A stretch of 28,752 nt of DNA from a virus. This document shows, one piece after another, positions 6,349 to 28,752 of the stretch. Position numbers and translations under genes: made by a program. How positions within the stretch are numbered: position 1 is the stretch's first letter; each line of letters begins with the position of its first letter. The stretch spans positions 1 to 28,752 of IMG/VR virus record IMGVR_UViG_3300020438_000197, one strand, 5' to 3'. The notes under the pieces were generated by a model. That model was not told the DNA's origin and did not search any database. It was given only the letters and a program-made list of their open reading frames with translations.

Positions 6349-6356
6349 TATTTATG
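6349..6356 (-). promoter_or_regulatory. Putative T4-type late promoter box before gp8
   Basis: The minus strand reads CATAAATA, a 7/8 match to the T4 late consensus TATAAATA. It lies 20 nt upstream of the gp8 ATG and overlaps the TAA of the preceding structural gene (6352-6354). T4-like late promoters have only this -10-type element, so the call rests on the box and its spacing. Confidence 0.55.
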
Positions 6357-10070: not shown

Positions 10071-10078
10071 TATTTAGA
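10071..10078 (-). promoter_or_regulatory. Putative late promoter box before the 1,234-residue structural gene
   Basis: The minus strand reads TCTAAATA, which differs from TATAAATA at one position. It overlaps the stop codon of the gp7-like gene (10074-10076) and ends 15 nt before the next ATG. A CTAAATA also occurs in the tandem box upstream of gp25. The short leader lowers confidence. Confidence 0.4.
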
Positions 10079-16000: not shown

Positions 16001-18302
16001 CCAACTTCATCTGTGCTTTCGCTATTGCAGAAATATCATTACCACCAGTGATGCTAACATTTGGAGTATCAAGATAATCTAATCCTTCAGTATCAACTAC
16101 AATTTCTTCTAACTCACCCTCAACATGAGTTATAGCAGATGCACCAACACCAGTATGTCCAGTTTGAGTAACTGATAATCTAGGAGGTGATATTACATCA
16201 TATCCAGATCCACTATTAAGTATCTCTACCGATTCTAAAGGACCATAGAATACTTTATCTGTTGCTTTGTAAGAATATATTTCTACTCCATTTGCAAATA
16301 ATCCAACTCCACCCTGAACAGTTTTTGATTTATCTTCAGCAAATACTGGTTCATCAAATTTTCTAAGTATCTTTTGTGCTCCTATAGAACTACCAAAAAC
16401 AACGTCTGGAGTTAGAAAATGAGTTGTTGTAGATGCTATATCGTCTGCAGTAAACGCAGTAATCAACTCTGAGTTACGAACGTTCTCTAGAGAGTATGCT
16501 AAAGCAACCCTATTGTTATCAATTTTCTTGATATAATATGGTTGATTATTATTTAAATTGGTTAATTTTGTAGATAAACATGTATATACGACCAATTCTC
16601 CATCATGAAAATTATGATCAATAATTTCTATTGTTGATCCAGCAGAGTTCAAAGCTGAGTTGAAGATCCTTAGTCTATCTTGCGGATCAATATTCCAATG
16701 AGGTAAACTATTAGATGCAACATATACTGTTTCATCACTAGAATAAGTGTTTTGAATATCTGCTGTATATCCATCAGAAGTTACTTTTACCCTTCTTCGT
16801 ATGTAATAAGCAACATTGGGATCTAAGTTACCAGTACTAGCTACAACAGATTTAGAATTTGGTGTGCTTAGAACTGTTCCTTCTTGTACATTATTTTCTT
16901 CATCTACAACATCTAACTTATCACCAACATAAAATACATGATCGTTAATTAAATCAAACCTATAACTATTACCACCTAAATCTTGAAATCCTACTAGACT
17001 ATGCTTTGCCGCAGTATTGTAAATCCAAGATGACCATCTCAGATTTTTTTGTACAATACCTAAACTCTTTACATTAATATTACTATTATTTTGTTGATTT
17101 GTAGCATCACCTACAAATTTACTTATGACACCTAGAACGTTCAATCTGACTACTTTACTTATATCACCATCTTCATATGAAAACGCATCCAATCCTGACC
17201 TTACAGTGGATCCTATGCCGCATGGAGAGGTAAGTGTAGCTACACCTACAAACTGTGTTATATTTTTACTAGTATAATCAAATGTTCTATCTTCAAATTT
17301 TATACTTCCTGTTGATCCAAACCCAACTGTAGAATCAACATGTAATATTGTTGCTCCTATTCCAGATGATTTTGTTATGAATGTTTTTCCTATTTGCCTA
17401 AATTTACCAACTATGCTACTCTGGTCAATTCCAATTTTATAGAATTTTTTACCATCAATAATAGCACGTTCTACATTGAATATTGAACCACTGGTTTGTA
17501 ATGGTTGTGTATCTTGTATTAGACTTTGACCCTCAATTTTCTCAGGATCACCCTGTAAACTTTCGCAAATTAAAACATCATTTACAATATAATCTGCACC
17601 AGATGGTTTTATTAGATATTTTGAAGGTTGAACCATTTCAACCTTTTCATTATACAATGCACCAAATAAAATCTTGAATGATTCTTCTGTTCCCTTTGAA
17701 CTATAAAAATCTTTTGCCTGTCTAATAAAATTAGATTGATCTACTTGTGTGTTGATATTTCTTTCAGAGAAACCTGGTAACACCTGAACTTTCAACTTTT
17801 CTAAAAATGAATTTAGAAAAATGTTACTTAGGTTAGTAACTCTAGCATCATTTTTATGAGTACTAACTCCAGTTTGAGTAAACGTTAGAAATTCTGGTTG
17901 ATTAGTTTTTGAATTATTTTCAATACCACTAAAACCACGAGTACATCCTGTAAAGGAAGTTGAACCTATTCCACTGTACGTGATTATCTCATCATCTATT
18001 TTTAATAATCCATATTGTCTAGGCCAACCTTTTGTAGAATCGACATATATTGTTTGCTCATTTGCATTGATATAACTAGTAAGTGAAGTAAAACCTATAA
18101 GGTTTTGGTTGTTCAAAAAATCTAATTTTTTATAGTCTGATAAATTATCAGCAATGTCTATAGATCCACCTTGGAATTCTTGAGAAATATAATATTGTTT
18201 TAAAAAATCAGCAAATAAAGGATTTTCAGTGTCTACGTACTGAGGTATCTGACCCTGAATTACTTCACTGATCTTTACTTTGGTGATGGATGTTTGTATC
18301 AT
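10074..18302 (-). CDS. gp7: Giant gp7-like baseplate wedge protein with YHYH-like segment
   Basis: A 2,742-residue protein directly after gp6, the gene 7 position. Two segments resemble T4 gp7 (1,032 residues) from memory: KDFYSSKGTEESFKILFGALYNE (here broken as KDFYSSKGTEES / FKILFGALYNE) at about 197-219, and DNDYYQNFSYSLKSQV...GFKKH at about 2236-2270. These anchors are about 2,000 residues apart here, against roughly 100 in T4. Between them lie repeated H-N-F-x-x-G-D/E modules (about 560-630, 790-867, 908-972 and near 1585) and GSGY/GGxxF beta units (about 690-755, 1040-1100). A YHYH-like segment spans 1172-1262 (GWAYDGHPIYGP, then NGRF...PNGVYAYY). Three similar C-terminal beta repeats cover about 2384-2462, 2499-2584 and 2636-2731. 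The ATG follows the gp6 TAA with no gap. The gp7 assignment rests on synteny plus the two segments. Confidence 0.82.
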   Translation of the reverse strand: MIQTSITKVKISEVIQGQIPQYVDTENPLFADFLKQYYISQEFQGGSIDIADNLSDYKKLDFLNNQNLIGFTSLTSYINANEQTIYVDSTKGWPRQYGLLKIDDEIITYSGIGSTSFTGCTRGFSGIENNSKTNQPEFLTFTQTGVSTHKNDARVTNLSNIFLNSFLEKLKVQVLPGFSERNINTQVDQSNFIRQAKDFYSSKGTEESFKILFGALYNEKVEMVQPSKYLIKPSGADYIVNDVLICESLQGDPEKIEGQSLIQDTQPLQTSGSIFNVERAIIDGKKFYKIGIDQSSIVGKFRQIGKTFITKSSGIGATILHVDSTVGFGSTGSIKFEDRTFDYTSKNITQFVGVATLTSPCGIGSTVRSGLDAFSYEDGDISKVVRLNVLGVISKFVGDATNQQNNSNINVKSLGIVQKNLRWSSWIYNTAAKHSLVGFQDLGGNSYRFDLINDHVFYVGDKLDVVDEENNVQEGTVLSTPNSKSVVASTGNLDPNVAYYIRRRVKVTSDGYTADIQNTYSSDETVYVASNSLPHWNIDPQDRLRIFNSALNSAGSTIEIIDHNFHDGELVVYTCLSTKLTNLNNNQPYYIKKIDNNRVALAYSLENVRNSELITAFTADDIASTTTHFLTPDVVFGSSIGAQKILRKFDEPVFAEDKSKTVQGGVGLFANGVEIYSYKATDKVFYGPLESVEILNSGSGYDVISPPRLSVTQTGHTGVGASAITHVEGELEEIVVDTEGLDYLDTPNVSITGGNDISAIAKAQMKLVHQEVEFDSTTQGSIVNTTTDRFVFPEPHGFKHGEELLYYTSGSAPIGIGTTPGNLENQSSYFVVKLNDFQMHISETKESALSGIGTIDLTTNGGGVHRFSAVDRRTKIDKIVLDNPGKFKNRQNTTSGITGINTFTSTFTITDHNFLSGDIVRYTADNNIGGLTSGSDYFAIKIDSNTFRLSSKKDLSDVIELTSMGSGTHTFQDPPIEVTISGRQGISTANAVGTPIARGKVIGLHIENPGTDFGSTVINDNFKPNIRIVEGKNSFLQAFVLNGRIDQIIILSGGEQFFSTPDIIITGDGVGAKAKAVIENGSIVRIDMITKGMNYTQGQTRVKALTPGSGAIFFGNVKEWTVNQVERLVKYGDVKNDDGFLEVERDSKLGNPYVNYYVPRNIRSYLGDDGSDHSPILGWAYDGHPIYGPTAIVGGQLKNIESSYSLFSGVDRVDGPPLSKYPSGFFVEDFTFVEGYGDLDEHNGRFAVTPDFPNGVYAYYTTVENSDTLNPLDPFDNTRRPVFPYVVGDTYNSTPIEFNIANDSVQDIDINKLNLIRNTDPHNINEYQFVTNSNKNTTINSKILSIKSDSLDKVEVIDSGREFNVDDALTFDNKNTKGFGAIGKVTKVTGPTLSTITSTITDFEDVIFSSLNNVVTGITTLPHGLVNSTYARVLGISTTTHSAFEATPRIKVESVRSSLSEAMLSIGLTTQVSFSDGFGANKFTVNDIVRIDSEQLKVYGYDSFFNQYKLFRAQNGTVAAAHTYGTPIERMERKFTYSITKKFYDSIEEDFSKFFDATSIVGVGLTFGVGIGVTISVNNVDKFIPTRTIFIENHSFNHGEKLSYSPGAGTSLTYQTDAMKRVSTGFKRPLPPEVFVQTLDNNLIGIVTTRTGIGSDLDRVMFDTTTGIGNTHNFTTTRNIVTGTLRIVDVQATTVGVHSMRPTNKLEMTLVSAARSTVTATYDPGTRFVSIGSSINPPLRLTTGDTLIVNTDDGSMLDTKMKFFLDRNYKKPFVGSGVSTIEVTEQSIPGNVGGMTSITFTPEVPSILYYQFVPVGTGANAKVIEIDKDIDNYSKIIVDASKFTGNHSITTTGSNTYNFNIVHTPEKVGYSTSSTIETVTNSKTHRGGVEEVILTSGGIVYEDLPEVSIASTTGTGASLKAVADNIGRLENVEIIDFGYDYPSDTTLRPEAEVGQVISLKDNFSVTSVGITSVGSKYLTPPNFVVYNRKKNIISGETEFLAELNGAGVGKVTIVNGGGNLSSSDNELIAVDNTNGVGIITATYSDPNVTLRLQTPSGGFTTSLPMPFQIGDRVFVENIGVSSGLGYNSANHDFEFFTLTGVTTAFGLVDQATITYAVNNDPGFHDFEKFGTVSNEKDIAKFQLNLSEGVFNNNERVFTPLGAQARIIAGDGKTRNTLRVDNLVGFSTGDKLTGELSRTSGTIESLKSFSGHFDIDSSISKRFGWEDDSGKLSDFYQRIQDNDYYQNFSYSLKSQVGISSWSEPVDSLAHITGFKKHSDLLIPSIATGAGSSVVGLSSQAGGVMLLDAEVDLDCRDQFDLVSENTNSDATSSSEVNFNSKRFGEAIACKGNRVLDIDDISPQFYSDADIFRSIELDRFDMTSVSAIKYYAQVVLDTSLGISFNATQYTEFIVSHDGSVAFLNTYSELSDSFDLGEFTANASGSICSVSFTPENTTYEYDITFHKEVLGSAVGVGTTAVGMLQKVGMTSAIASSGSPAVNTIYEFDGSKFRSGSIIVAAGTATEKEIDEFSFLASGTNDCSYSNFGLMDAGTDMGSFVINQASGVIRLEFTPPANTAVTVATMSTVVGIATTVASSGFTTTQYRIGDTELNSRRTTIASAGSPTSTVIAGFSSSNYTSIRYTIEVENTTDNAYSSYNVVANSYEGSINFVKFNNLSTASGISTIGADTSVPGAVRDIRATEVVASGTATELKFTPAPNKAYNVRVVELRIDKPDDLSSDLSVGF

Positions 18303-20180
18303 TTATCGAGTTCTCTTACCGATTTGGTAACTAGATTGTGGATTGAATCTTGATCCTGAAGTGTCTGCACCAGATGCTATTGAATCTTTTCTCATATAAA
18401 AATTACTCTTTGATACTTCAAATTGTAAATACAATTCATTTCTTGCTAAGATATCATTAGAATCTGGATTTGCTTCAACCTCTATAATATTATTTGTGAG
18501 TGCAGTAGATGTTACATTCACAGTATCTATAATGATTTCACCCTTCTTATAATCAACAGTTCCAAAACTATTTGAAAGAACTTTTATAGAATCATCAGTA
18601 AGAATTTGGAATAGTATAAGTTTACCATTTGTACTATCAATCTTTTGATCAGTAAAGAAGCAAGTTCCCGATACTCCAGAAACAGTAAATCCAGTGGATT
18701 TTATATTGAAACTATCTTCGTTACAATAAAAAGAGTTCAAGAAACATAACTCATATTGAGTAAATTGATTGATTTTAGAAATCAAATTTCTTCTTATCCT
18801 AACTGTAGTAATGTTAGATGTAATAGAATTATCAACATTATCAATCAATGATAATACTTTACTATACTTAAACCTACCACCAAATTGATTTAGTTCTTTA
18901 CCCGTAGCAAAAGATGCAAGTGAATTTACTACAGAAGTTTTTAGAGTTTCTGCGTTACCAGCAAAGTTTGGGTTATAGTAAATGTAAGTATCAATCTCAA
19001 CAAATAAGAACTTTAGATCAACAAAGGTAGGAACTATACCTGCCACTGAATAATTTTTCAATGAGGATAAAATATCCTTTTTAGTAAAGTCAGATAAGAA
19101 AGAACCATTCTTAGGTTTAGCAGATATAAAAACTCTTCCATACTGAGGTGGAGTCAACTCTTCACCACCATATGCACTCACAGACTCTATATTAGAATAG
19201 ACTGAAGGAATAATTGCTTCATAATCTGAAGCAGTTACTGCTCTATGCTGAGATGAGTAAACTCTAGGAGCGTAGTATCTTACACTATCAAGGTTTTCTA
19301 TATCATCACCATTTTCTGATGGATATTGAGCATTCAACGTAGCAGTAAAATCATCTAAAGTTGCACCATCCTGATCACTAAGAGTACCTGCAAATTTGAA
19401 ACCTGCTACACCATTACCATCCTTTCCGCTTGTTTTTATATAAGTAACATCAACTATATTTCCAGATTCTAATTTTTCACCAAATACGCCATCACCAAAC
19501 AATAATTCATATCTCTCATCAGTCGTCTCTTGTAATAAGAATATATTAGATGTTGATGTAATTCCTATAATATTAGTTGCTAAATTATACTCTGTACTAG
19601 TGCTACTACTAGAACTCTCAAACACTTTTACTTTAATTGTAGAAGTGTCTATATCAGAATTTGGTAAAACAAATCTTTGATTTGGTTGTGAATTATCAAT
19701 TACAAATTGACTTTCTAGGTATTGACCTTGACAAATTTCTATTGTGCCTTGAGATATTCCACCACTAACAGTTCCAGTTACTTCTTCAGGTAAAGAAAAA
19801 ATATAATTTGCATTTGATACTGATCCATTTGCTACCACACCTGGTTCAAACACCATTGTAGATGTAGATGTTGTTATTCCTGATATAAAATAATCTACTT
19901 TTGTTTTTGCTGCAGATTTTGAACGAGGAACATATCCAATATTACGTGCTAATGATACAACGTTTTCTCTAAGTGTGGCAGAATCAATGAAAGTTTCATT
20001 CACCACCATATTGGTGTTGTATGCAGTAATATAAGAATTATAAGCAAGAGTGTTTATAAGAATTGAGAGATTGGAACCCTCAAAATCCATATCTGAGAAA
20101 TTAGAATTTTCTCTCAAATAATCTTTTAGCGAAGATTTTATATCTTCAAAATTTAGGTTTGTAAATTGTTGAAGTGCCAT
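18303..20180 (-). CDS. gp6: Baseplate wedge subunit gp6
   Basis: A 625-residue protein close to T4 gp6 in length (660). In T4, gp6 forms the continuous ring that joins the six baseplate wedges. The N-terminus (residues 8-90) has the family pattern LNFEDIKSSLKDYLREN, then SILINTLAYNSYITAYNTNM and an F-I-D-S-A-T-L-R-E-N segment leading to ARNIGYVPRS. A central GDGVFGEKLESGNIVDVTYI segment resembles the baseplate J / gp6 core shared with other contractile systems. The ATG overlaps the gp25 stop by 1 nt (TAATG) and the stop abuts the gp7-like ATG, so the three genes are almost certainly co-translated. No odd features are visible. Confidence 0.93.
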   Translation of the reverse strand: MALQQFTNLNFEDIKSSLKDYLRENSNFSDMDFEGSNLSILINTLAYNSYITAYNTNMVVNETFIDSATLRENVVSLARNIGYVPRSKSAAKTKVDYFISGITTSTSTMVFEPGVVANGSVSNANYIFSLPEEVTGTVSGGISQGTIEICQGQYLESQFVIDNSQPNQRFVLPNSDIDTSTIKVKVFESSSSSTSTEYNLATNIIGITSTSNIFLLQETTDERYELLFGDGVFGEKLESGNIVDVTYIKTSGKDGNGVAGFKFAGTLSDQDGATLDDFTATLNAQYPSENGDDIENLDSVRYYAPRVYSSQHRAVTASDYEAIIPSVYSNIESVSAYGGEELTPPQYGRVFISAKPKNGSFLSDFTKKDILSSLKNYSVAGIVPTFVDLKFLFVEIDTYIYYNPNFAGNAETLKTSVVNSLASFATGKELNQFGGRFKYSKVLSLIDNVDNSITSNITTVRIRRNLISKINQFTQYELCFLNSFYCNEDSFNIKSTGFTVSGVSGTCFFTDQKIDSTNGKLILFQILTDDSIKVLSNSFGTVDYKKGEIIIDTVNVTSTALTNNIIEVEANPDSNDILARNELYLQFEVSKSNFYMRKDSIASGADTSGSRFNPQSSYQIGKRTR

Positions 20181-20584
20181 TATAGCCTAGTTGGTTCTAA
20201 TACAAATTGTAAGGTTTGACTCGGTGCGGATAAACCAACGAGATCATAGGATAATTTAATATCTAAAGCATTACTATCAGGTTCTGAAAAAACATCAACA
20301 CTCGTCAATTCAACTCTTGGTTCATTATTTGTTATTGTGGTTTCTATTTCAGTTTTTATAGGATCAACGAAATCATCATTTGCTAATTCAAATAAAGCAC
20401 CAGTAATTCTAGTACCTATCAGTTCGTTGAAAAAAACTTCACCTAATTGTATTCTTATCAAATTTTGGACAGAACGCTTTATTGCATCCTCATTTCTCAA
20501 TGCAAGTATATCATTTGTTACTGGATGACGTTTGAAAGACAATGATATGTCTTTGAAACCTTGCGAAAAACGTTGGACAGGCAC
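20180..20584 (-). CDS. gp25: Baseplate wedge subunit gp25 (GPW/gp25 family)
   Basis: A 134-residue protein, nearly the size of T4 gp25 (132), a lysozyme-like-fold wedge protein that sits next to the sheath. The N-terminus PVQRFSQGFKDISLSFKRHP, then an NEDAIKRSVQNLI helix and GEVFFNELIG, fit the gp25 family core (the E-x-F/x-N loop after the basic helix). The start is GTG at 20582-20584. No in-frame ATG lies near enough to keep the conserved N-terminus, so GTG is preferred. There is no obvious Shine-Dalgarno. It is the first gene of the baseplate unit, 23 nt downstream of a late box, and overlaps gp6 by 1 nt. Confidence 0.93.
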   Translation of the reverse strand: MPVQRFSQGFKDISLSFKRHPVTNDILALRNEDAIKRSVQNLIRIQLGEVFFNELIGTRITGALFELANDDFVDPIKTEIETTITNNEPRVELTSVDVFSEPDSNALDIKLSYDLVGLSAPSQTLQFVLEPTRL

Positions 20585-20606: not shown

Positions 20607-20621
20607 TATTTATCTATTTAG
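20607..20621 (-). promoter_or_regulatory. Tandem late promoter boxes driving the baseplate module
   Basis: The minus strand carries CTAAATA directly followed by GATAAATA. GATAAATA (20607-20614) matches 7/8 of the T4 late consensus, and its 3' end lies 23 nt before the gp25 GTG. The site lies just downstream of the terminator at 20626-20657, as expected for a new transcription unit. Which of the two boxes is used cannot be told from sequence. Confidence 0.65.
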
Positions 20622-20625
20622 AGGC

Positions 20626-20657
20626 AAAAAAAGACCTCCTCTGTCGAGAAGGTCTTT
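20626..20657 (-). terminator. Rho-independent terminator ending the tailoring operon
   Basis: On the minus strand, arm AAAGACCT (20657-20650), one T-G wobble, CTC, loop GACA, GAG, and arm AGGTCTTT (20637-20630) form a 12-pair hairpin. The downstream arm runs into seven consecutive T's. It follows the 57-codon gene by about 25 nt and precedes the gp25 promoter, so it separates the tailoring operon from the baseplate module. On the plus strand the tail is TTTATT with an A-C mismatch, so use in that direction is unlikely. Confidence 0.88.
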
Positions 20658-20878: not shown

Positions 20879-20886
20879 TATCTATA
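20879..20886 (-). promoter_or_regulatory. Weak candidate late box before the 57-codon gene
   Basis: The minus strand reads TATAGATA, one mismatch from TATAAATA, 24 nt before the ATG of the small gene. It overlaps the TAG of the glycosyltransferase (20882-20884), an arrangement also seen at two other late boxes in this window. The mismatch falls in the core, so this is tentative. Confidence 0.28.
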
Positions 20887-21640
20887 TAATTCTTGTCTTC
20901 TCATGACCAACACGACATTGTGGATCACACCAGATTTCATATCCTGCCTTGATAGCATCTAAACAAAATGATACATCCTCTCCGCACATGTCTTGAACTT
21001 CACCTGAATCAAACACCTGCATCTGAGGTGCAAACCAAGGATAAGTCATTTCCTTATTTTCAAAAACACCATGTTTGATTAGTAACCAACCAAAACCAGT
21101 GTAATCAACAGTAAATGGTTTTCTACGTTTTTGAATACCATCAACTGTCTCATGATTCATTACCCCACCGTTTTCCTTAAAGTCATCCTCTTCAAGCCAG
21201 TGAGCAACGGATGTCGTTTTACCGTCTTCTGTAGCGTACCAACCAGCAGCAAGATCCTTGTCCATGCATACAATGCGATAAAAGTTTTCGAGGTTGAAAA
21301 CGATATCACTGTCAATCCAAAGTTGATAGTCATACTTGAGCTTCCCGTCCCATGGTAGTTGATCTGGTCCTCTGAGAACATTAGCACCTAAGCACTTACA
21401 ACGTGCGAAGTTTACCATTGAACTATAATCTTGTGAGATTTGAATGCTCGCACCACTTTGAACCAGATCAAAGCAAAGTTGTACAAACGCCTTCAAAAAT
21501 ATATAAGAAACGCCACGACCAGGTAGACAAAAGACAATACTCTTACCTTTGATCAATTCTTTTCCTTTTTCTACAGACCACCAGTCTTCCTTTTGCTCTG
21601 TAGTGGGTGGGGTGGTTACCACTTTAAATCCTTTAGCCAT
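20882..21640 (-). CDS. GT-A fold glycosyltransferase-like protein
   Basis: A 252-residue protein. The DSD at 110-112, in LKYDYQLWIDSDIVF, fits the metal- and nucleotide-sugar-binding DxD of GT-A glycosyltransferases. The downstream CGEDVSFCLDAIKAGY (219-234) supplies the usual acidic ED pair before a helix, and WCDP...VGHEKT (237-249) adds the terminal His often seen in family-2-like enzymes. An N-terminal segment GRGVSYIFLKAFVQL with a later NFARCKCL fits the nucleotide-binding half. There is no membrane anchor or signal peptide, so it should act in the cytoplasm. Donor and acceptor cannot be read from sequence. It lies 37 bp downstream of the SGNH-type gene within the late tailoring operon. 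Confidence 0.75.
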   Translation of the reverse strand: MAKGFKVVTTPPTTEQKEDWWSVEKGKELIKGKSIVFCLPGRGVSYIFLKAFVQLCFDLVQSGASIQISQDYSSMVNFARCKCLGANVLRGPDQLPWDGKLKYDYQLWIDSDIVFNLENFYRIVCMDKDLAAGWYATEDGKTTSVAHWLEEDDFKENGGVMNHETVDGIQKRRKPFTVDYTGFGWLLIKHGVFENKEMTYPWFAPQMQVFDSGEVQDMCGEDVSFCLDAIKAGYEIWCDPQCRVGHEKTRII

Positions 21641-21677: not shown

Positions 21678-22433
21678 TTATATAGCTTCTATCAACTCAA
21701 TCAACTTTTCCGCAATCTTTTTATGTCCTAATGTATTAGGGTGATTGCCTTTAGCATGATAATCACCATATACATGGTCTCCTATACCGTCCTCCTTATG
21801 TCCTATGATATGTTCATGAAGACGAGTTATAGGTAAACCCTGATATAATGGTTTCCACCAACCAGTATGTCCAACCCTTTCATGGTAAAACTTTTCTGGT
21901 CTGCGGATTACTTCGTGAAAGTGATCCGCTAACAGAGGAATAAAGGTAATATTATTTGCTTTACAGTATGAATCAAATAAAACCATATTTTTCCACATAT
22001 TTTCTGCACCAAGAATATCACTATACACAAATCTATAAAACCATTTACCTGCAGAGTGTAATCTTTCTCTCAACTCGTCTGACATGGGATTGCCCTTCAA
22101 TTTCACTTTTGCATGAGTTGAAGTAAGTTGTGGTGTAAATCGATGTAAAAAACCTTGTTTATCAAACCACTCCATTCTAGAGTGAACAGTGAACTGTAAC
22201 ACTACAATATCAACTTTTTCTTTTTCAAGATATTCAATGGCTTCTCTTACGATACGATCATTACTATTACCACAGAAGGAGATGTTGTTTTCATCTATAC
22301 CAAAGTTATTGCAGACCAATTTACTATAACGCTCGTTCTCACGATCCTCAAGTTCATCACCCCAAGTAATAGAACAACCATGAAACAGTATTTTCGAGAA
22401 TGTTCTATTTTTTACATGACTAATCAATTTCAT
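21678..22433 (-). CDS. SGNH/GDSL-type hydrolase-like protein (copy 1)
   Basis: A 251-residue protein. Block I is FHGCSITWGDEL (nucleophile Ser21). A GNSNDRI segment at 55-61 supplies the Gly/Asn oxyanion positions. The C-terminal GNHPNTLGHKKIAEKL (His231) is the catalytic His block. The residue three before that His is Lys, not the usual Asp, so the enzyme may use a Ser-His dyad or an Asp from elsewhere (a GDYH lies just upstream). SGNH enzymes add or remove acyl groups, often on glycans. I chose ATG at 22431-22433, which overlaps the carbamoyltransferase stop as TGATG, over a TTG one codon upstream. There is no signal peptide. Confidence 0.75.
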   Translation of the reverse strand: MKLISHVKNRTFSKILFHGCSITWGDELEDRENERYSKLVCNNFGIDENNISFCGNSNDRIVREAIEYLEKEKVDIVVLQFTVHSRMEWFDKQGFLHRFTPQLTSTHAKVKLKGNPMSDELRERLHSAGKWFYRFVYSDILGAENMWKNMVLFDSYCKANNITFIPLLADHFHEVIRRPEKFYHERVGHTGWWKPLYQGLPITRLHEHIIGHKEDGIGDHVYGDYHAKGNHPNTLGHKKIAEKLIELIEAI

Positions 22434-23812
22434 CAAAAAACCTTTACTGAGTATTCACTTGAGAAGAGTTTTGCATCTTCGGTGCTATTTACCATTGGTT
22501 TACCCCGAACATTCAAAGAGGTATTCAATAATACAGGACATCCCGTCTTCTCATACCAGCACTCCAATATGGGTCTCAGAACGCTTTCAGATGTCTCTGG
22601 CACTGTTTGTACCCTAGCAGAGTTATCAACGTGTAGACAGGCAGGAATGAGGTTACTCTGCTTGCATTGATAAACATATGACATATGCCTAGAATGTTCA
22701 GGCATATCAAACCATTCTTGACAATGCTCTTCTAGTATAGCAGGAGCAAATGGTCTAAACTTCTGACGTTGTTTTATTTCGTTGACGAGATCTTTGGTTG
22801 AAATTTCTCTTGGATCCGCCAATAGACTTCTATTGCCAAGAGCACGAGGACCAAACTCAGCACGACCATTTGCAACACCAGCGATTTTATGTTTGAGTAA
22901 ATGATCGACCACTTCTTCTGGATCCACTGTACCCCTGATGTTATGTCCAAGATAGGGGGTAAATTGAACCTTCTTACCGTATGCAAGTAAAGCTGCACCT
23001 AAAGCACCTCCAGCGTCGCCAGGATTGGGCATAATCCATAGATTGCACCTTTCCCTTAGTTTTGTATTTACAACACAGTTTAGGGCAACTCCACCCCCAT
23101 AGCAAATATTGTTACTATATTTTTTAGCAATATCAAATATTTCAAACAGTTCTTCTTGCAGAACAACCTCTGCACTCTTTGCTACATCACATGGGTCACC
23201 TTCTAGTCCACGTATACCTTTATGGTTGTTCTTAGAAAGTAGTGCTCGTAACTCCTTAGTATGACTAGGTTTTCCGAAGGCTGCCATTCCCATAAAGATA
23301 TATTCTTCATCTAATGGTTTCAACCCTGCCCATTTAGTCAACGCACTATACCATAGACCAATAGACTTAGGATATCGTCTAGACCAACGTTTCTTGTATA
23401 CTGCTAAACCATTTACTATGTCAGCAGTCCATACTGAAGAACAATCCCATTCACCAATACTATCTACTACCACACACGCAGCACGAGAGAAATTGGAGGT
23501 TTGAAATGCAGCAGCAGCATGTGACTTATGATGATCAAAGAATCTATTTGGTTGTAAAGACAACTCTCTATCCTTTCTCCACGCTTTTTGACCTGCATAT
23601 AACTGTCTACTTCTTTTTACTGTTGGATTTTCATAGAATGCCACTATATCATCATGTATATTCAAACCTCTTGCCATAGTAACTGCAGTAAGATCTAATC
23701 TCTTATCATGCTTTCTTTTTGAATATCTCTCGGAGTGTGCAGCATAACTGATAGTATTCTTATGCACAACCGCAATAGCAGCATCATGAAACCCTTCGCT
23801 AAACCCTATCAT
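22433..23812 (-). CDS. NodU/CmcH/TobZ-family O-carbamoyltransferase
   Basis: A 459-residue protein with the family's full motif set. HHKSHAAAAF has the two metal-binding His residues at 94 and 98, and VVVDSIGEWD starts at 114. GGGVALN spans 239-245 and PNPGDAGGALGAAL spans 262-275 (metal-ligand Asp266). The C-terminal YrdC-like half has GRAEFGPRALGNRS (316-329), KFRPFAPAIL (351-360) and LLNTSLNVRGKP (428-439). The family moves carbamoyl from carbamoyl phosphate, via carbamoyl-AMP, to a hydroxyl of a sugar or nucleoside. It is shorter than TobZ (570) and stops soon after the last motif. I chose the ATG at 23810-23812, which overlaps the upstream stop as ATGA and begins MIGFSEGFHDAA. A longer start at 23860 would add 16 residues inside the upstream gene. 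The acceptor is unknown: glycan is likely, DNA base is possible. Confidence 0.92.
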   Translation of the reverse strand: MIGFSEGFHDAAIAVVHKNTISYAAHSERYSKRKHDKRLDLTAVTMARGLNIHDDIVAFYENPTVKRSRQLYAGQKAWRKDRELSLQPNRFFDHHKSHAAAAFQTSNFSRAACVVVDSIGEWDCSSVWTADIVNGLAVYKKRWSRRYPKSIGLWYSALTKWAGLKPLDEEYIFMGMAAFGKPSHTKELRALLSKNNHKGIRGLEGDPCDVAKSAEVVLQEELFEIFDIAKKYSNNICYGGGVALNCVVNTKLRERCNLWIMPNPGDAGGALGAALLAYGKKVQFTPYLGHNIRGTVDPEEVVDHLLKHKIAGVANGRAEFGPRALGNRSLLADPREISTKDLVNEIKQRQKFRPFAPAILEEHCQEWFDMPEHSRHMSYVYQCKQSNLIPACLHVDNSARVQTVPETSESVLRPILECWYEKTGCPVLLNTSLNVRGKPMVNSTEDAKLFSSEYSVKVF

Positions 23813-24789
23813 ATATGATGACCCCAAGAACTCGGCAAAGACCCAAACTCGTCTTCCCATTGTGAGTAGACTGGATCCAATTGTTTTCTACCATAATTGT
23901 ACAACTCTTTTGTTAGTGGTTCCTGTACGGATCCCCATTGATCCTTCAGGAAATCGTATTTAGGTGCGTTTTCACCTGCCTCTGGCCAAAACGCATTCTC
24001 ATGTATCTTTTTTATAGGATAATTTAGAAACTCTGATAATATACTTGTTTGTTCCTTAAAGTTACTAGGTTCCCAAAAATCTTCCATTACTATTTGAAGA
24101 GTGGGAACATATTGTTTAAATTTACGATAAAAATCAATATAATGAAATGTTTCAACTGATGAGTCCAACTCCTCTACAAACAACTGCCCTATTGTATCAT
24201 ATCGTTCCTTTTTCATTTTCATACCAGGATTGAACATACCCTTCTTTATCCAATCACTACTATTGCAATTTCCAGTAAACTTTGCACTAAAATCAGAGTA
24301 ACTTCTACGAACTGGATCTCTAGCAACAAATATAACTTTTATATCAAAATATTCTTGAAGTCTTGGTACATACTTATCTAAAAAAGGTTCTCTTAACCAA
24401 CCATTACAATTACTAAAATCAGCAACTGCGTGATAGTCGTGTTTTATATTACGCCAATGTATGAGATAGTAATCAATATACTTTTCTATATTTGGTGGTT
24501 CTGCTATCCAATCTTGAATAAACTCTTCTGGGAAGTCATTATATGGAGAATGATGATTTAGTTCTGGTGGCACATTAGGAGTATCTGGTCCTAGTATTCT
24601 TTCATATGGGTTAGAGTTATACTCCCACATAGGTCTATCAAAATATTCATACTGTTCCATGTTGGGAAGATATGAAGGTTCTTTGATATGACCTCCATGA
24701 CAATACATATTATCCGCAAGGGTATAATAAAATGGAGTGGAGGCAGCATGACCCCACCCACAAAAAAGCAGAAATGGTATCTTAGTCAT
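23809..24789 (-). CDS. Sulfotransferase-like protein, paralog 1
   Basis: A 326-residue protein. RDPVRRSYS at 157-165, after a beta strand KVIFVA, is the 3'-phosphate (PAPS) binding motif of sulfotransferases. The N-terminal CGWGHAASTPFYYTL (10-24) occupies the 5'-phosphosulfate loop position, but has His where the classical P-K-x-G-T-T has Lys. Features shared with three paralogs in this window are DFSNCN (124-129), VMEDFW, and AFWPEAGENAP followed by L-x-x-Q-W. Cytosolic, no membrane segment. The start overlaps the 29-codon gene by 8 nt and the stop overlaps the carbamoyltransferase start by 4 nt, so it is translated as part of the late operon. Substrate unknown; the neighbours suggest a glycan. 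Confidence 0.78.
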   Translation of the reverse strand: MTKIPFLLFCGWGHAASTPFYYTLADNMYCHGGHIKEPSYLPNMEQYEYFDRPMWEYNSNPYERILGPDTPNVPPELNHHSPYNDFPEEFIQDWIAEPPNIEKYIDYYLIHWRNIKHDYHAVADFSNCNGWLREPFLDKYVPRLQEYFDIKVIFVARDPVRRSYSDFSAKFTGNCNSSDWIKKGMFNPGMKMKKERYDTIGQLFVEELDSSVETFHYIDFYRKFKQYVPTLQIVMEDFWEPSNFKEQTSILSEFLNYPIKKIHENAFWPEAGENAPKYDFLKDQWGSVQEPLTKELYNYGRKQLDPVYSQWEDEFGSLPSSWGHHI

Positions 24790-24871
24790 CCTCTTCGTAA
24801 ATATATGGATCTTCTCTACGTAATTTCCAAAGCTTATACTCTCCTTTGATCCACTCCCAAAGTCTTCTCAT
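24782..24871 (-). CDS. 29-residue basic-to-acidic peptide, first gene of the tailoring operon
   Basis: ATG at 24869-24871 to TAA at 24782-24784. The product begins MRRLWEWIKGEYKLWKLRRE and ends DPYIYEEDD: an amphipathic Trp-rich basic helix followed by an acidic tail. Its last codons overlap the start of sulfotransferase-like paralog 1 (ATGACTAA), an arrangement typical of translational coupling. A CATAAATA late box lies 23 nt upstream of its ATG, so this peptide, not the sulfotransferase-like gene, is the first open frame of the transcript. It resembles very short conserved cyanophage proteins I have seen, but I know no function. It could be a leader peptide or an adaptor. Confidence 0.6.
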   Translation of the reverse strand: MRRLWEWIKGEYKLWKLRREDPYIYEEDD

Positions 24872-24874
24872 AAT
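24846..24874 (+). promoter_or_regulatory. Putative sigma-70-type promoter for the rightward paralog 2
   Basis: TTGATC (24846-24851), a 17-bp spacer, then CATAAT (24869-24874): 4/6 and 5/6 matches at ideal spacing. It would start transcription near 24,881, giving a leader of about 18 nt before the ATG at 24899. It lies inside the antisense 29-codon gene. The rightward gene needs its own promoter because every gene to its left is on the minus strand. The evidence is sequence match only. Confidence 0.4.
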
Positions 24875-24893
24875 ACATAAAGGGTAAGTGTGA

Positions 24894-24901
24894 TATTTAT
24901 G
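24894..24901 (-). promoter_or_regulatory. Late promoter box of the tailoring operon
   Basis: The minus strand reads CATAAATA, identical to the box before gp8, 23 nt upstream of the 29-codon gene. It explains how the 29-codon, paralog 1, carbamoyltransferase, SGNH, glycosyltransferase and 57-codon genes could be transcribed together down to the terminator at 20626-20657. The box overlaps the ATG (24899-24901) of the oppositely oriented paralog 2. Confidence 0.6.
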
Positions 24902-25735
24902 AAACCAAAACTGATCATCTGTGCAGGAGTAGGATGGGCAGCAACAAGGTCTATAATGCACTCATTGAAGAACTTTAACCATGGTTTAGGAAAAGAAGAT
25001 CATATTTTATATCAACTTTCAATAAATGATCCAGAACATCTAAAATTTTATACTGAGTCAAAAGAAACAATAGAAAGAAATAAAAGATATGGTATTGAGG
25101 ATGGTAATCCAACTTTAGATAAATTTATCGAACTTTACTTGAGAAACGCAGAAGGATATGATGGAGTAACAGATTTTACTAATGCAAACCAAAAATTAGA
25201 TCCATTTTTTCTAAGAGATATAAAACCACGTTTAGATGAGCATTTTGACGTAAAAGTCGTAATGATCTTTAGAGACCCTGCCAGAAGATTGTTTTCAGAG
25301 TGCTGTGCATACTTCAATAACAAATGGGTACAAACAGACCATAAAAACGTTAGGGACTACTTTATAGAGGTTCTAAAGAATGGTAGTGTTACTAATTCAG
25401 AAAAGTATGCAGAATATTTTAATAACTGGAAATCAAACAAATATAAAATATATCCCATAATCATGGAAGATCTATATCAAAATAAAAAAGATTGTTTTGG
25501 TAAATTACAAAACTTTCTTGGATGTTCTATGGAATTATATCCTACAGCATATTGGCCAGAGAGGGGAGTAGATGCACCTCTTATAAAAGGTCTAAGTTGT
25601 CAAAAATCAGACACTGAAGTATTATCCAATGAAGATTATAGATACGCAAAAAGAAAATTACGTATACACTATGAATTTATGGAATTTATATCAATCAAAT
25701 ATAGTCCTGATTTTAAGAATTACCATGCACGGTAG
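24899..25735 (+). CDS. Sulfotransferase-like protein, paralog 2 (rightward)
   Basis: A 278-residue protein on the opposite strand to most of the window. It shows the same family layout: N-terminal loop AGVGWAATRS (9-18), TDFTNAN (91-97), VVMIFRDPARRLFSEC with the PAPS 3'-phosphate motif at 125-133, IIMEDLY, and AYWPERGVDAP followed by L-x-x-Q-K. It is the shortest copy; in place of the FGS-x-P end of the others it ends with a different tail. A GTG three codons upstream (24890) is better spaced from an AGGG at 24881-24884. I prefer the ATG at 24899 because MKPKLIICAGVGWAAT then aligns residue for residue with paralog 4 (MKTPLIIGAGKGWCAT). Its 3' end overlaps paralog 3 tail-to-tail by 23 bp. 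Substrate unknown. Confidence 0.75.
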   Translation: MKPKLIICAGVGWAATRSIMHSLKNFNHGLGKEDHILYQLSINDPEHLKFYTESKETIERNKRYGIEDGNPTLDKFIELYLRNAEGYDGVTDFTNANQKLDPFFLRDIKPRLDEHFDVKVVMIFRDPARRLFSECCAYFNNKWVQTDHKNVRDYFIEVLKNGSVTNSEKYAEYFNNWKSNKYKIYPIIMEDLYQNKKDCFGKLQNFLGCSMELYPTAYWPERGVDAPLIKGLSCQKSDTEVLSNEDYRYAKRKLRIHYEFMEFISIKYSPDFKNYHAR

Positions 25736-26870
25736 TATACTTTTTCATGATAGTAGCAAGTTTGTCTGAAGGTTCATAAATCATATTTTCATAATGCCAT
25801 GCCTCAGGTATGCTACCAAACTTTTTTTTCCACTCTTTATAATGCGTTCTCATATATGGAATTGCCTTCTGTATAGACTCTTCGCTAATTGTTTCTCTGT
25901 CTGACTTTTGATCAATCAAACCTGTTAGTTTAGGAGCATCTGAACCGAGATCTGGAAAATATGCGTTAGGATATATGCTTTTGATGGGATAATCTAAGAA
26001 ATTAGATAATCTTTCGCATTGTTGTCTTTTATACTGAGGATTCCAAAATTCTTCCATGACAACTCCCAATATATTATCCTTCCCCACTATTTCTTCCCAA
26101 GCATTATAACACCTAACATATTGACAATTGCCACCACCGTCAATATGAAATTTCAAAGCCATTTGAAAGAAATCATTATGCCTATTCTCTTTTATCAACT
26201 TCATTCCCATTCTTCTCAACTTATTCGCTGGTGCAGCTTCACCTTCTTCATGTTCTGCTATCAATCCAGCAATATCACCAAACAAAGCACCTAACTCCGA
26301 ATATAACCTTCGTATAGGATCTCTAAATTCAATAAGAACCTTTATGTCAAAATGTTTTTGTATCTCTTCTATAAAATACTTTCCCCACCTTGCACTTCCA
26401 TCATTAGATCCATAATTAACCAATGGTAGGTTCCAATTATTATTACAAAAATCTGCAACAGCAACATAGTCTCCTTTTATATGCTCCCAATGTCTTAGAT
26501 AGTAATCAATATACTTTTCAACACTAAGTGGTTTTTGCCACCACTTATGGATATAATCATTTTCATGAAAATGAGCACAATACGCATGTTCAACTGGTTT
26601 CCATCCAGTATATGTCCACATCATCTCATCCTTAACTGTTTGACTCATCCAATTCCATGCCGTATAAACATTACCCTTCTCCTCACACAATGCTCTTAGA
26701 TAGTGATTCTCTTTTATATGACCAGGATGACAATATCTTTGGTTGATAGATAAGGTATAACACATCGGAGTAGTGGCAGCCCAACCAACACCAATATTCA
26801 TTAGTAAAATTGGTTTCTTAGGTTTTTCAACCGCAGGTTCTATTATTTTCGGTCTATGTAATGCTTTCAT
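25713..26870 (-). CDS. Sulfotransferase-like protein, paralog 3
   Basis: A 385-residue protein, the longest of the four. It has an N-terminal extension of about 20 residues rich in Lys/Pro (KPKIIEP-type, with EKPKKP) before the NIGVGWAATTPMCYTL loop (25-40). Then come YCHPGHIKENHYL, shared closely with paralog 1 (YCHGGHIKEPSYL), DFCNNN (140-145), and VLIEFRDPIRRLYSEL with the PAPS 3'-phosphate motif at 183-191. VMEEFW, AYFPDLGSDAP, and a KKFGSIPEAWHYE end region follow. A GGAG lies 7 nt before the ATG at 26868-26870, which supports this start over an internal Met24. It overlaps paralog 2 at its 3' end, and its start codon abuts the start codon of paralog 4. A TATAAATG box lies about 130 bp upstream. 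Confidence 0.77.
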   Translation of the reverse strand: MKALHRPKIIEPAVEKPKKPILLMNIGVGWAATTPMCYTLSINQRYCHPGHIKENHYLRALCEEKGNVYTAWNWMSQTVKDEMMWTYTGWKPVEHAYCAHFHENDYIHKWWQKPLSVEKYIDYYLRHWEHIKGDYVAVADFCNNNWNLPLVNYGSNDGSARWGKYFIEEIQKHFDIKVLIEFRDPIRRLYSELGALFGDIAGLIAEHEEGEAAPANKLRRMGMKLIKENRHNDFFQMALKFHIDGGGNCQYVRCYNAWEEIVGKDNILGVVMEEFWNPQYKRQQCERLSNFLDYPIKSIYPNAYFPDLGSDAPKLTGLIDQKSDRETISEESIQKAIPYMRTHYKEWKKKFGSIPEAWHYENMIYEPSDKLATIMKKYTTVHGNS

Positions 26871-26876
26871 ATGAAA
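26865..26876. promoter_or_regulatory. Zero-gap divergent start-codon junction, palindrome TTTCATATGAAA
   Basis: The ATG of paralog 3 (minus, 26868-26870) and the ATG of paralog 4 (plus, 26871-26873) are adjacent, forming CATATG inside a perfect 12-bp palindrome. No intergenic sequence exists, so ribosome-binding and promoter elements of each gene must lie in the coding sequence of the other. Only the minus side shows a recognisable GGAG. Confidence 0.85.
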
Positions 26877-27782
26877 ACTCCACTAATCATTGGAGCTGGT
26901 AAAGGTTGGTGTGCCACTAGTCCTCTTCACCTTACACTACAGTGTGCTACCAAATGTAGTCACACAGGTATACTAAAAGAAGATCACCTATTATATAACA
27001 TTTATAATAAAGACGCATGGGGGTGGAGAGAGTATTGGTATAAGCGTTTAGTGAATGACTCAATGACTCCTAATTGGAAACATCCTTATGGATATCAATC
27101 AAAATATGGTTTTCATAACAACTTAGAGGAAATTGAAGAACTTTTTACTAGAAATCCAACGTTACAAACTTATATCAAATATTATAAGCGTCATTATCAA
27201 AGAGTAAAGCATGAATACAAGTATGTTCATGACTTTTCTAACAGTAATGCTCTCTTACCTAGAAATTTTCTTGCAAAAATAGCACCAGTTCTAAAAAAAC
27301 ACTTTGATATAAAAGTTTTAATGATTTTTAGAGACCCTGTTAGAAGATTATATTCAGAATTATCACAAAAATATCAAGATTCTCCAAATTTACAAAAAAG
27401 TTATAATACTTCAAAGGATTATTGGAAGAGTTATCTTAAAAAAGGAAAAATTACCCAAAATTCTGATTATATTTGGTCATTTAAATCGTATAATGAGTTT
27501 TTTAGTACCATATCTATCGTTTCTGAGGAATTATGGGACGGAAAAAATAATTGTCAAGAAAAATTAGCTAAATTTTTAGATTTTGACATAAAAGAATTGT
27601 GGCCAAATGCTTACTTTCCAGAAATGGGAACAAAAGCACCTCATCATGAGTATTTGAAGGATCAATGGTCGTCAGATTTAGAAGACTTGACAGAAGAAGA
27701 CCTTGAGTTTGGAAGAAAATATATGAAAAAGTACTATGACGAGTGGTATGACTACTTTGGTAGTATGCCTTGGAGATGTTGA
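26871..27782 (+). CDS. Sulfotransferase-like protein, paralog 4 (rightward)
   Basis: A 303-residue protein. N-terminal loop GAGKGWCATSPLHLTL (8-23), HDFSNSNALL (120-129), and VLMIFRDPVRRLYSEL with the PAPS 3'-phosphate motif at 154-162. AYFPEMGTKAP is followed by LKDQWSS, and the end is YYDEWYDYFGSMPWRC. The Q-W-x-S and FGS-x-P features are closest to paralog 1. This is the only copy with a Lys in the N-terminal loop (GKGW), although it is two positions away from the canonical Lys column as I align it. I see no Shine-Dalgarno before the ATG and no convincing promoter in the preceding 170 bp. The 3' end overlaps the second SGNH-type gene by 31 bp, tail-to-tail. Confidence 0.76.
   Translation: MKTPLIIGAGKGWCATSPLHLTLQCATKCSHTGILKEDHLLYNIYNKDAWGWREYWYKRLVNDSMTPNWKHPYGYQSKYGFHNNLEEIEELFTRNPTLQTYIKYYKRHYQRVKHEYKYVHDFSNSNALLPRNFLAKIAPVLKKHFDIKVLMIFRDPVRRLYSELSQKYQDSPNLQKSYNTSKDYWKSYLKKGKITQNSDYIWSFKSYNEFFSTISIVSEELWDGKNNCQEKLAKFLDFDIKELWPNAYFPEMGTKAPHHEYLKDQWSSDLEDLTEEDLEFGRKYMKKYYDEWYDYFGSMPWRC
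26999..27006 (-). promoter_or_regulatory. Weak candidate late box for paralog 3
   Basis: The minus strand reads TATAAATG (7/8 of TATAAATA), about 130 bp upstream of the paralog 3 ATG and inside paralog 4. It is the nearest late-like box I found for this leftward gene. The distance and the AT-rich context make it tentative. Confidence 0.25.
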
Positions 27783-28450
27783 GCAATCAATTTATGACCA
27801 TTTGCACTTGGATGACCACCTCCATACATAGGATCTACGTGACTTAGGTCGGGACAAAAGTTTGCATTCCTTGGTTTTGTTGTTTTTAGGTGTTTTCCAA
27901 TAATTGAATCACATATTTCTATCATATTTTTATTACTTGATGCTTTTTTGTATGGACAATTTACATCATCCCTAAGTTCATTACCCTTCATTTCAAATCT
28001 CATGAAATAATAAGGTATATTTTTATTTTCTAAGTAAGTTTCTAACGATAACACGGATCTCCAAAACTCATTTGTAGCATAAACATTATTATGAATGGTT
28101 TTATAAAAAGATCTTACTGATGTAAGATGTATATTTCTATTAATTATGTTCATAAGAGTGTTGGATGGATGCATGTCGAACCAACAACCTTTTTTCTCAT
28201 CATAAACAGCGTATCTATTTGGAAGAGTGAACTGAGCAATTACAAAATCTATTGTATTTTTGTTTGATTCGATATAATCAATCACAGATCTTGATATCAT
28301 TTCGTTAGACCATCCATTAGATCCAATGTTTACATGGGGGTGACCCACAACAGATGAAAATCTGTTAGCTATTCTGTATTCATGGTTTTTATCTAAACCA
28401 TCTAACTCAGCACCGCAAGTCCAACTATCACCAGAGTATAATATGTTCAT
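27752..28450 (-). CDS. SGNH/GDSL-type hydrolase-like protein (copy 2)
   Basis: A 232-residue protein. MNILYSGDSWTCGAEL gives block I (Ser9). NIGSNGWSNEMI (41-52) carries the Gly/Asn segment, and DFVIAQFTLPNRYAVY matches a DIVVLQFTVHSRMEWF segment of copy 1. GGGHPSANGHKLIAQHL at the C-terminus gives the catalytic His block, again without Asp three residues before the His. It is related to copy 1 but clearly diverged, with a different central insert. Its ATG overlaps the stop of the upstream gene as ATGA, and its last 31 bp overlap the end of paralog 4 on the other strand. No signal peptide, so it should act inside the cell unless carried on the virion. Substrate unknown. Confidence 0.75.
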   Translation of the reverse strand: MNILYSGDSWTCGAELDGLDKNHEYRIANRFSSVVGHPHVNIGSNGWSNEMISRSVIDYIESNKNTIDFVIAQFTLPNRYAVYDEKKGCWFDMHPSNTLMNIINRNIHLTSVRSFYKTIHNNVYATNEFWRSVLSLETYLENKNIPYYFMRFEMKGNELRDDVNCPYKKASSNKNMIEICDSIIGKHLKTTKPRNANFCPDLSHVDPMYGGGHPSANGHKLIAQHLQGILPK

Positions 28451-28752
28451 GCGTATACGTTAGGGTTTGGCATAGAATAATATCTTTCCCATAGAAAAGT
28501 ACGTAACTCCATAGACACCTTTCTATAAGAATTCAAGTCTATCGCATACACACCAGATATCTGAGGATGATTTACTGTTATAAAATTCATAATATTGAAA
28601 TCTGCAAAAGTATATTCAGATTCTCTTAAAACTAAGTCATCATAGAGTTTTATCATATCACCCTGCTTAGTTGGATATCCCTTCAAATACTGACAAGTAT
28701 ACTGTATCACATTATTTGATGCTTCAAAACTATATTGTGGTATTTTGATAAT
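28447..28752 (-). CDS. Unidentified protein, 5' end outside window
   Basis: The frame is open from the right edge to TGA at 28447-28449, giving 101 visible C-terminal residues. A GTG at 28710 could be read as a start, but the frame continues upstream to the edge without a stop, so the gene is most simply 5'-truncated by the window. Visible features are an aromatic-rich helix (YTCQYLKGYPTKQGD), LYDDLVLRESEYTFADFNIM, a VNHPQISGVYAIDL segment, and an RTFLWERYYSMPNPNVYA end. I do not recognise the family. The 4-nt ATGA overlap with the second SGNH-type gene places both in one operon. Confidence 0.6.
   Translation of the reverse strand: MIKIPQYSFEASNNVIQYTCQYLKGYPTKQGDMIKLYDDLVLRESEYTFADFNIMNFITVNHPQISGVYAIDLNSYRKVSMELRTFLWERYYSMPNPNVYA

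Follow-up and report, generated by a model that had tools for sequence, protein, structure and literature searches.

A phage family with a predicted sulfotransferase fold in a candidate glycan-tailoring island of T4-like cyanophages

The IMG/VR virus record IMGVR_UViG_3300020438_000197 was analyzed over 28,752 nucleotides (positions 1 to 28,752, hereafter the window), in which four neighboring genes, designated ST1 to ST4, encode a family that structure prediction assigns to the sulfotransferase (ST) fold, nearest to the heparan-sulfate N- and 3-O-sulfotransferases. We file them as a fold family, a divergent phage branch of the sulfotransferase fold with predicted sulfotransferase activity. 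The reading that we favor, at a probability of roughly 0.4, is that this branch, using 3'-phosphoadenosine 5'-phosphosulfate (PAPS), tailors a glycan in the cytoplasm late in infection and that the product is carried by the progeny virion.

Four divergent paralogs and their fold

A preliminary description of the window had reported an array of four paralogs at 23809-27782; all four open reading frames (ORFs) proved intact, with coordinates in agreement:

23809..24789, minus strand: ST1, 326 amino acids (aa); ORF; AlphaFold2 (AF2) model with pLDDT 89.2; Z 15.6 to 1nst and 15.5 to 1t8t
24899..25735, plus strand: ST2, 278 aa; Pfam Sulfotransfer_1 at 25.8 bits (cutoff 22); divergent from ST1
25713..26870, minus strand: ST3, 385 aa; family motifs; 34% identity to ST1; ortholog in related loci L004, L008, and L015
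26871..27782, plus strand: ST4, 303 aa; 87% identity to the L015 ortholog

The strands alternate (-, +, -, +), with ST3 and ST4 starting head to head at zero gap (26870/26871) and ST2 and ST3 overlapping tail to tail by 23 bp; homologs of ST2 begin at the ATG at 24899, and a GTG at 24890 (281 aa) is possible. Pairwise identities of 28 to 34% came with BLASTP E values of 1e-17 to 1e-48, so that the four are homologs and do not resemble each other by chance. Every motif listed earlier was recovered in all four proteins, namely the first loop (GWGHAAS, GVGWAAT, GVGWAAT, and GKGWCAT from ST1 to ST4), DFxNxN, RDPxRRxxS, A[FY][WF]PxxGxxAP, and LxxQ, and not one of the four main motifs was found in any other window ORF of ≥100 aa.

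The structural matches of the AF2 model of ST1 (pLDDT 89.2, pTM 0.89) were all sulfotransferases; it aligned best with NDST1 (1nst; Z 15.6, root mean square deviation 3.3, 227 residues; VIA-align), followed by 3-OST-3 (Z 15.5), the bacterial sulfotransferase 3rnl (Z 15.2), and 3-OST-1 (Z 15.0), while tyrosylprotein and cytosolic sulfotransferases scored lower (Z 10 to 12). Foldseek of the same model agreed at modest E values (best, 1.5e-4), and in a viral library annotated sulfotransferases, including that of S-SCSM1, ranked near the top. Structure prediction, one of the checks proposed, returned for ST1 a sulfotransferase fold rather than some other one. In sequence searches, a profile of 38 homologs matched 3rnl (9e-5) and heparan-sulfate 3-O-sulfotransferases, and a single-sequence PDB search with ST1 gave no match. 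PF00685 (Sulfotransfer_1) matched 3 of 38 family representatives at an E value of ≤0.01; in the window, ST2 scored over the cutoff, and ST1, ST3, and ST4 gave no match. No PHROG describes the family in a PHROG search.

The four copies had been considered too diverged to be recent, and the phylogeny bears this out: in a 143-row tree, ST1 to ST4 fell into four separate, strongly supported orthogroups, each with orthologs in other phages. Since the best within-island identity of ST copies has a median of 34.7% and a maximum of 66.6%, the arrays are for the most part made up of long-diverged paralogs that have been exchanged among genomes, and some duplications are newer. Purifying selection acts on all four genes, with dN/dS values of 0.085 for ST4 and 0.27 for ST3 and, for ST1 and ST2, in which synonymous change is saturated, pN values of 0.15 and 0.19. 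At G012:C1:37465-38341, an ST copy is broken into adjacent fragments, which suggests decaying copies and gene birth and death.

A late operon, its partners, and their distribution

The rest of the island and the adjoining baseplate genes comprise the following features:

10074..18302, minus strand: gp7-like large baseplate protein; position and family as in S-SSM7
18303..20180, minus strand: gp6 baseplate wedge subunit; 51% identity to Synechococcus phage gp6 and 64% to that of Marine virus AG-345-D19
20180..20584, minus strand: gp25 baseplate wedge subunit; synteny with annotated cyanophage gp25
20607..20613, minus strand: late promoter motif (ATAAATA) located 23 nt upstream of gp25
20630..20657, minus strand: intrinsic-terminator-like hairpin (12-pair stem and T-run) between the island operon and gp25
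20882..21640, minus strand: phrog_1574 protein, glycosyltransferase (GT)-like (DSD motif); phrog_1574 at 9.5e-115; kept beside gp25 in Kyanoviridae
21678..22436, minus strand: SGNH/GDSL-type protein; SGNH family member with a weak GDSL Pfam match
22433..23812, minus strand: O-carbamoyltransferase (CT; NovN/TobZ/NodU superfamily), 459 aa; Carbam_trans_C 6e-52, Carbam_trans_N 1e-32; phrog_1601
24782..24871, minus strand: unannotated micropeptide of 29 aa, MRRLWEWIKGEYKLWKLRREDPYIYEEDD, with a stop codon that runs into the ST1 start
24894..24900, minus strand: ATAAATA, a late promoter motif of the T4 type heading the micropeptide-ST1-CT-SGNH-GT operon, 26 to 31 nt before the micropeptide across loci
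27752..28450, minus strand: second SGNH/GDSL-type protein; AF2 pLDDT 90.1; Z 14.2 to GDSL hydrolase 4rsh
28447..28752, minus strand: F12 family protein, truncated by the window end; common to L002, L003, and L015, the family recurring in related islands

The minus-strand unit runs from promoter through micropeptide, ST1, carbamoyltransferase, SGNH, and phrog_1574 genes to the terminator-like hairpin and the gp25 promoter, and its late transcription alongside virion genes is well supported by promoter motifs. The window contains four-fold fewer ATAAATA sites than expected (4 versus 16.3); the sites, all on the minus strand and mostly before genes, lie at 6349-6355, 8862-8868, 20607-20613, and 24894-24900. 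Across loci, the motif precedes gp25 in 12 of 16 genes (0.8 expected); at the divergent ST2/ST1 junction, it is kept in seven loci (the window, L002, L003, L004, L006, L007, and L008), and it is mostly absent, apart from a few exceptions, where the upstream gene is already codirectional. General sigma-70 promoters showed no excess over shuffles. The micropeptide (∼30 aa) recurs in 28 loci, the window being one of them, and in every case a short distance upstream of ST1, F7, or the carbamoyltransferase operon; it is under strong constraint and more conserved than its neighbors (pS 0.77, pN 0.098; 23 unique sequences) and had no convincing match in phage records. F7 is a ∼350-aa family without a Pfam match that lies between ST1 and the carbamoyltransferase gene in several phages (L003:10960-12012 and relatives); in relatives, the ST1 ortholog adjoins the carbamoyltransferase gene.

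The carbamoyltransferase, whose true start is likely 23812, matched NovN (1.7e-44) and TobZ (3e-35) in the PDB and belongs to the O-carbamoyltransferase class, with both Carbam_trans domains and the core motifs HHKSH, GGVALN, and FGPRALG. An earlier comparison with Nod-factor decoration held as far as the superfamily of NodU; the NodU equivalog NF041651 was missed by a wide margin (128 bits versus a cutoff of 1000), neither a NodH-like nor a NodL-like protein turned up, and the resemblance is best read as analogy only. The SGNH protein at 27752-28450 shows the SGNH hydrolase fold with invariant S9, N49, and H213, and carbohydrate esterases are among its structural matches. For the phrog_1574 protein, whose gene synteny is also seen in S-SSM7 and S-CAM9, the match to glycosyltransferase phrog_34859 reached only 0.003.

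Two scans of IMG/VR yielded about 100 loci, which, after loci with identical proteins were merged, represented 67 uncultured virus groups carrying the ST family. In 42 of the 67, gp25 lies in the same locus, accompanied by the phrog_1574 gene in 42, an SGNH gene in 39, and the carbamoyltransferase gene in 37; the company described for the window is consistent, and islands at these loci hold 1 to 9 ST copies. Searches of whole records found the family in 20 of 20, with 1 to 8 copies each. That the gene set might prove widespread and already annotated with another function had been raised as an objection; it is indeed widespread, and no other annotation was found. The assignment of the window to a T4-like, Kyanoviridae-like cyanophage is confirmed by the gp25-gp6-gp7 synteny and cyanophage relatives. 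Carriers of the family are cyanophage-like, because psbA occurs in relatives (3 of 20 whole ST-carrying records plus the single-virion assembly AG-345-D19) and gp6 is nearest to that of Synechococcus phages; for the window itself, a 28.7-kb fragment, the host is presumptive. Among 50,697 phage records, tblastn of ST1 to ST4 matched only the contigs of Marine virus AG-345-D19, which came from the extracellular-particle sort gate of plate AG-345 (PMC6122165). A bacterial origin was rejected: 84,980 genomes of bacteria and archaea were scanned twice, with peptide patterns taken from A4 and A8, and the 13 and 124 pattern hits included no relative, although such exact short patterns could miss distant ones.

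Two isolates, S-SSM7 and S-CAM9, have small, mostly hypothetical genes in the corresponding slot, which is bounded by the phrog_1574 gene and the helicase. Islands of relatives add an HpcH/HpaI aldolase, a 2-oxoglutarate (2OG) oxygenase, a radical SAM protein, and a PF03567 sulfotransferase; this second sulfotransferase family, with a canonical IAKCGGT loop, occurs at L003:5450-6403 (minus strand) and in L060, L071, and L076. The 192-kb phage G001 carries three further ST copies between a 1430-aa fiber-like gene and neck genes. Beside ST-fold genes of a 192-kb cyanophage, two paralogous small proteins with TGPQGSGNHL loops (L108:8144-8776 and 13194-13871, minus strand) are possibly another sulfotransferase-like family without the loop lysine. 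In the 192-kb phage, a gene with an NAD-dependent epimerase N terminus (L109:12305-13198), a possible source of sugar nucleotides, is separated by ∼3 kb from an ST copy that stands alone (8344-9207).

Donor, acceptor, and destination

The 3'-phosphate motif is kept across the 193 full-length members (R157, 97%; R162, 99%; S165, 96%). Classical sulfotransferases carry K or R at the 5'-phosphosulfate (PSB) loop position; here, the residue is W in 135 members, F in 33, H in 14, and Y in 11, and K or R in none. The register against the classical PKSGTT is clear because 15 members read GTGWSGTTP. Structural alignments begin with model residue 3 at 57 (3-OST-1) and 151 (3-OST-3) and with residue 1 at 601 (NDST1), so that ST1 model residue 14 corresponds, assuming that the stretch is ungapped, to 68, 162, and 614, respectively, the loop lysines required for activity. 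At the second lysine position, 89% of members have F (EKTP becoming DFSN in a motif-level alignment). K36-E37 is conserved in 88%, with E37 lying 23 residues past the loop position; the catalytic Glu of 3-OST-1 (3-OST E90 type) lies 22 residues past it, a matching by spacing rather than by residue-level structure. The description of the proteins as sulfotransferase-like stands for the fold, through the profile search and AF2 model, and is weakened for sulfation by the replaced loop residue. PAPS-dependent sulfation is likely and remains the default, rather than an established activity, because the PSB-loop K/R is lost in all members. Phage-made PAPS was ruled out, neither APS kinase nor PAPS reductase being present in the phages tested; PAPS would thus need to be supplied by the host.

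The company of the ST genes, their nearest folds, and a cytoplasmic location (a membrane or signal segment was predicted in 0 of 268 ST ORFs) fit a glycan-tailoring island, whose probable target is a sugar chain of the virus or of its host. We infer PAPS as the donor, a glycan as the acceptor, and the virion as the destination. In this scheme, ST1 would be made late from the single operon adjoining the gp25-gp6-gp7 baseplate genes; ST1 to ST4, as cytoplasmic transferases, would tailor the glycan, most likely with sulfate at several positions; the decorated glycan would end up on tail, baseplate, or fiber structures of the progeny virion; and exchange of copy sets between phages could alter adsorption or permit escape from recognition. 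Several observations weigh against it. Besides the complete loss of the loop charge and the absence of APS kinase and PAPS reductase from the phages tested, the window holds no glycan assembly genes apart from the GT-like gene, and in T4-like phages many nonvirion genes also neighbor virion genes. Moreover, the plus strand, which carries ST2 and ST4, has no late motif in the window, so late expression need not hold for every copy.

The balance tilts to the virion because the ST1 operon is late and located among baseplate and fiber genes, and the virion is slightly more likely than the host surface as the site of the glycan, the host surface being nearly as likely. Modification of a host surface polysaccharide, such as lipopolysaccharide (LPS) or its O chain, perhaps to shut out superinfecting phages or to free progeny from receptors, is the most serious alternative. 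LPS clusters and carbamoyltransferases with no assigned role are known from cyanophages (PMC3037559), and epimerase, DegT, cytidylyltransferase, and heptose genes are among the flank families of related contigs; however, the promoter motif of the ST1 operon marks it for late and not early regulation, the ST and CT proteins are soluble, and the island in the window shows no membrane, flippase, or export gene.

It is considerably less likely that the fold and the 3'-phosphoadenosine pocket were kept without sulfate transfer from PAPS, in enzymes of changed chemistry or donor or in binding proteins. The uniform aromatic or His replacement at the PSB loop and the F at the second lysine position would agree with this, as would the retention of K/R by other sulfotransferases of the same phages or relatives (LPRSGST in S-SCSM1, FPKSGRT in G004, and IAKCGGT in L003), whereas K36-E37, at the matching position of the 3-OST catalytic Glu, could supply charge, and the conserved pocket suggests catalysis. 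Since that pocket is kept and the sulfate-holding lysine is aromatic, another 3'-phosphoadenosine donor such as acyl-CoA is conceivable, in which case the island would serve acylation, carbamoylation, and deacylation of virion glycans; we consider this improbable. An acceptor other than a glycan, namely phage DNA, RNA, or a small metabolite, has a marginally smaller chance still: phage DNA hypermodification also employs 2OG oxygenases and group transferases, but no base-modifying or hydroxymethylation gene was seen in the island, and late expression, baseplate synteny, and the glycan sulfotransferases as nearest folds argue otherwise. Finally, an invertible, phase-variable (fiber) cassette, brought to mind by the alternating strands, is very improbable given that no long flanking inverted repeats were found (longest, 33 nt at 73%) and the orientation of ST1 to ST4 to gp25 is constant in the island phages compared, another orthogroup flipping between lineages.

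Relation to known systems

The ST proteins form a separate, unnamed family with up to nine copies per island, swapped between phages and tied to late virion genes in uncultured marine T4-like viruses, of which the phage in the window is one, and no paper on phage-encoded sulfotransferase arrays was found in the open-access literature. Decoration of virions, if it occurs, would give phages an equivalent of glycan shielding and bring open questions of cyanophage adsorption and host range within direct reach of tests. Should the lost lysine mark new chemistry, the known range of one of the best-studied transferase folds would be widened.

With NDST1 (1nst), 3-OST-3 (1t8t), and 3rnl, ST1 shares a common fold over 224 to 227 residues (Z 15.2 to 15.6) at only 12 to 17% identity. 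The heparan sulfate sulfotransferases and 3rnl resemble the family in the RDPxxRxxS 3'-phosphate motif and perhaps in a KE near the position of the catalytic Glu. Unlike these enzymes, the phage proteins have no signal or membrane anchor, show W, F, H, or Y in place of the PSB-loop lysine, and possess motifs of their own (DFxNxN and YxPxxGxxAPxxxxLxDQW). The phage carbamoyltransferase shares both Carbam_trans domains and the three core motifs with NovN, TobZ, and NodU but is shorter (459 aa versus 576 to 687 in solved O-carbamoyltransferase chains). Likewise, SGNH/GDSL hydrolases and carbohydrate esterases (TesA, Est24, and CE2) share the fold (Z 12 to 14) and the invariant Ser and His, whereas SGNH genes are multicopy in the phage island.

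Single phage sulfotransferase genes have been noted with function unknown, including a PF13469 gene in contigs of OM43 phages that resemble S-SRM01 (PMC10580990). The S-SCSM1 and OM43-phage genes, like those described here, are sulfotransferase-superfamily genes in marine T4-like or other phages, although S-SCSM1 has a canonical PRSGST loop in a single PF00685 match that falls outside the ST family and not in an array. The paper on the LPS clusters of large cyanophages makes no mention of sulfotransferases (PMC3037559). The clusters of S-SSM7 and P-SSM2 are surface-sugar genes in Kyanoviridae that have a carbamoyltransferase in common with the island, but they sit elsewhere, near hli03 or phoH, and lack the ST array (PMC3037559).

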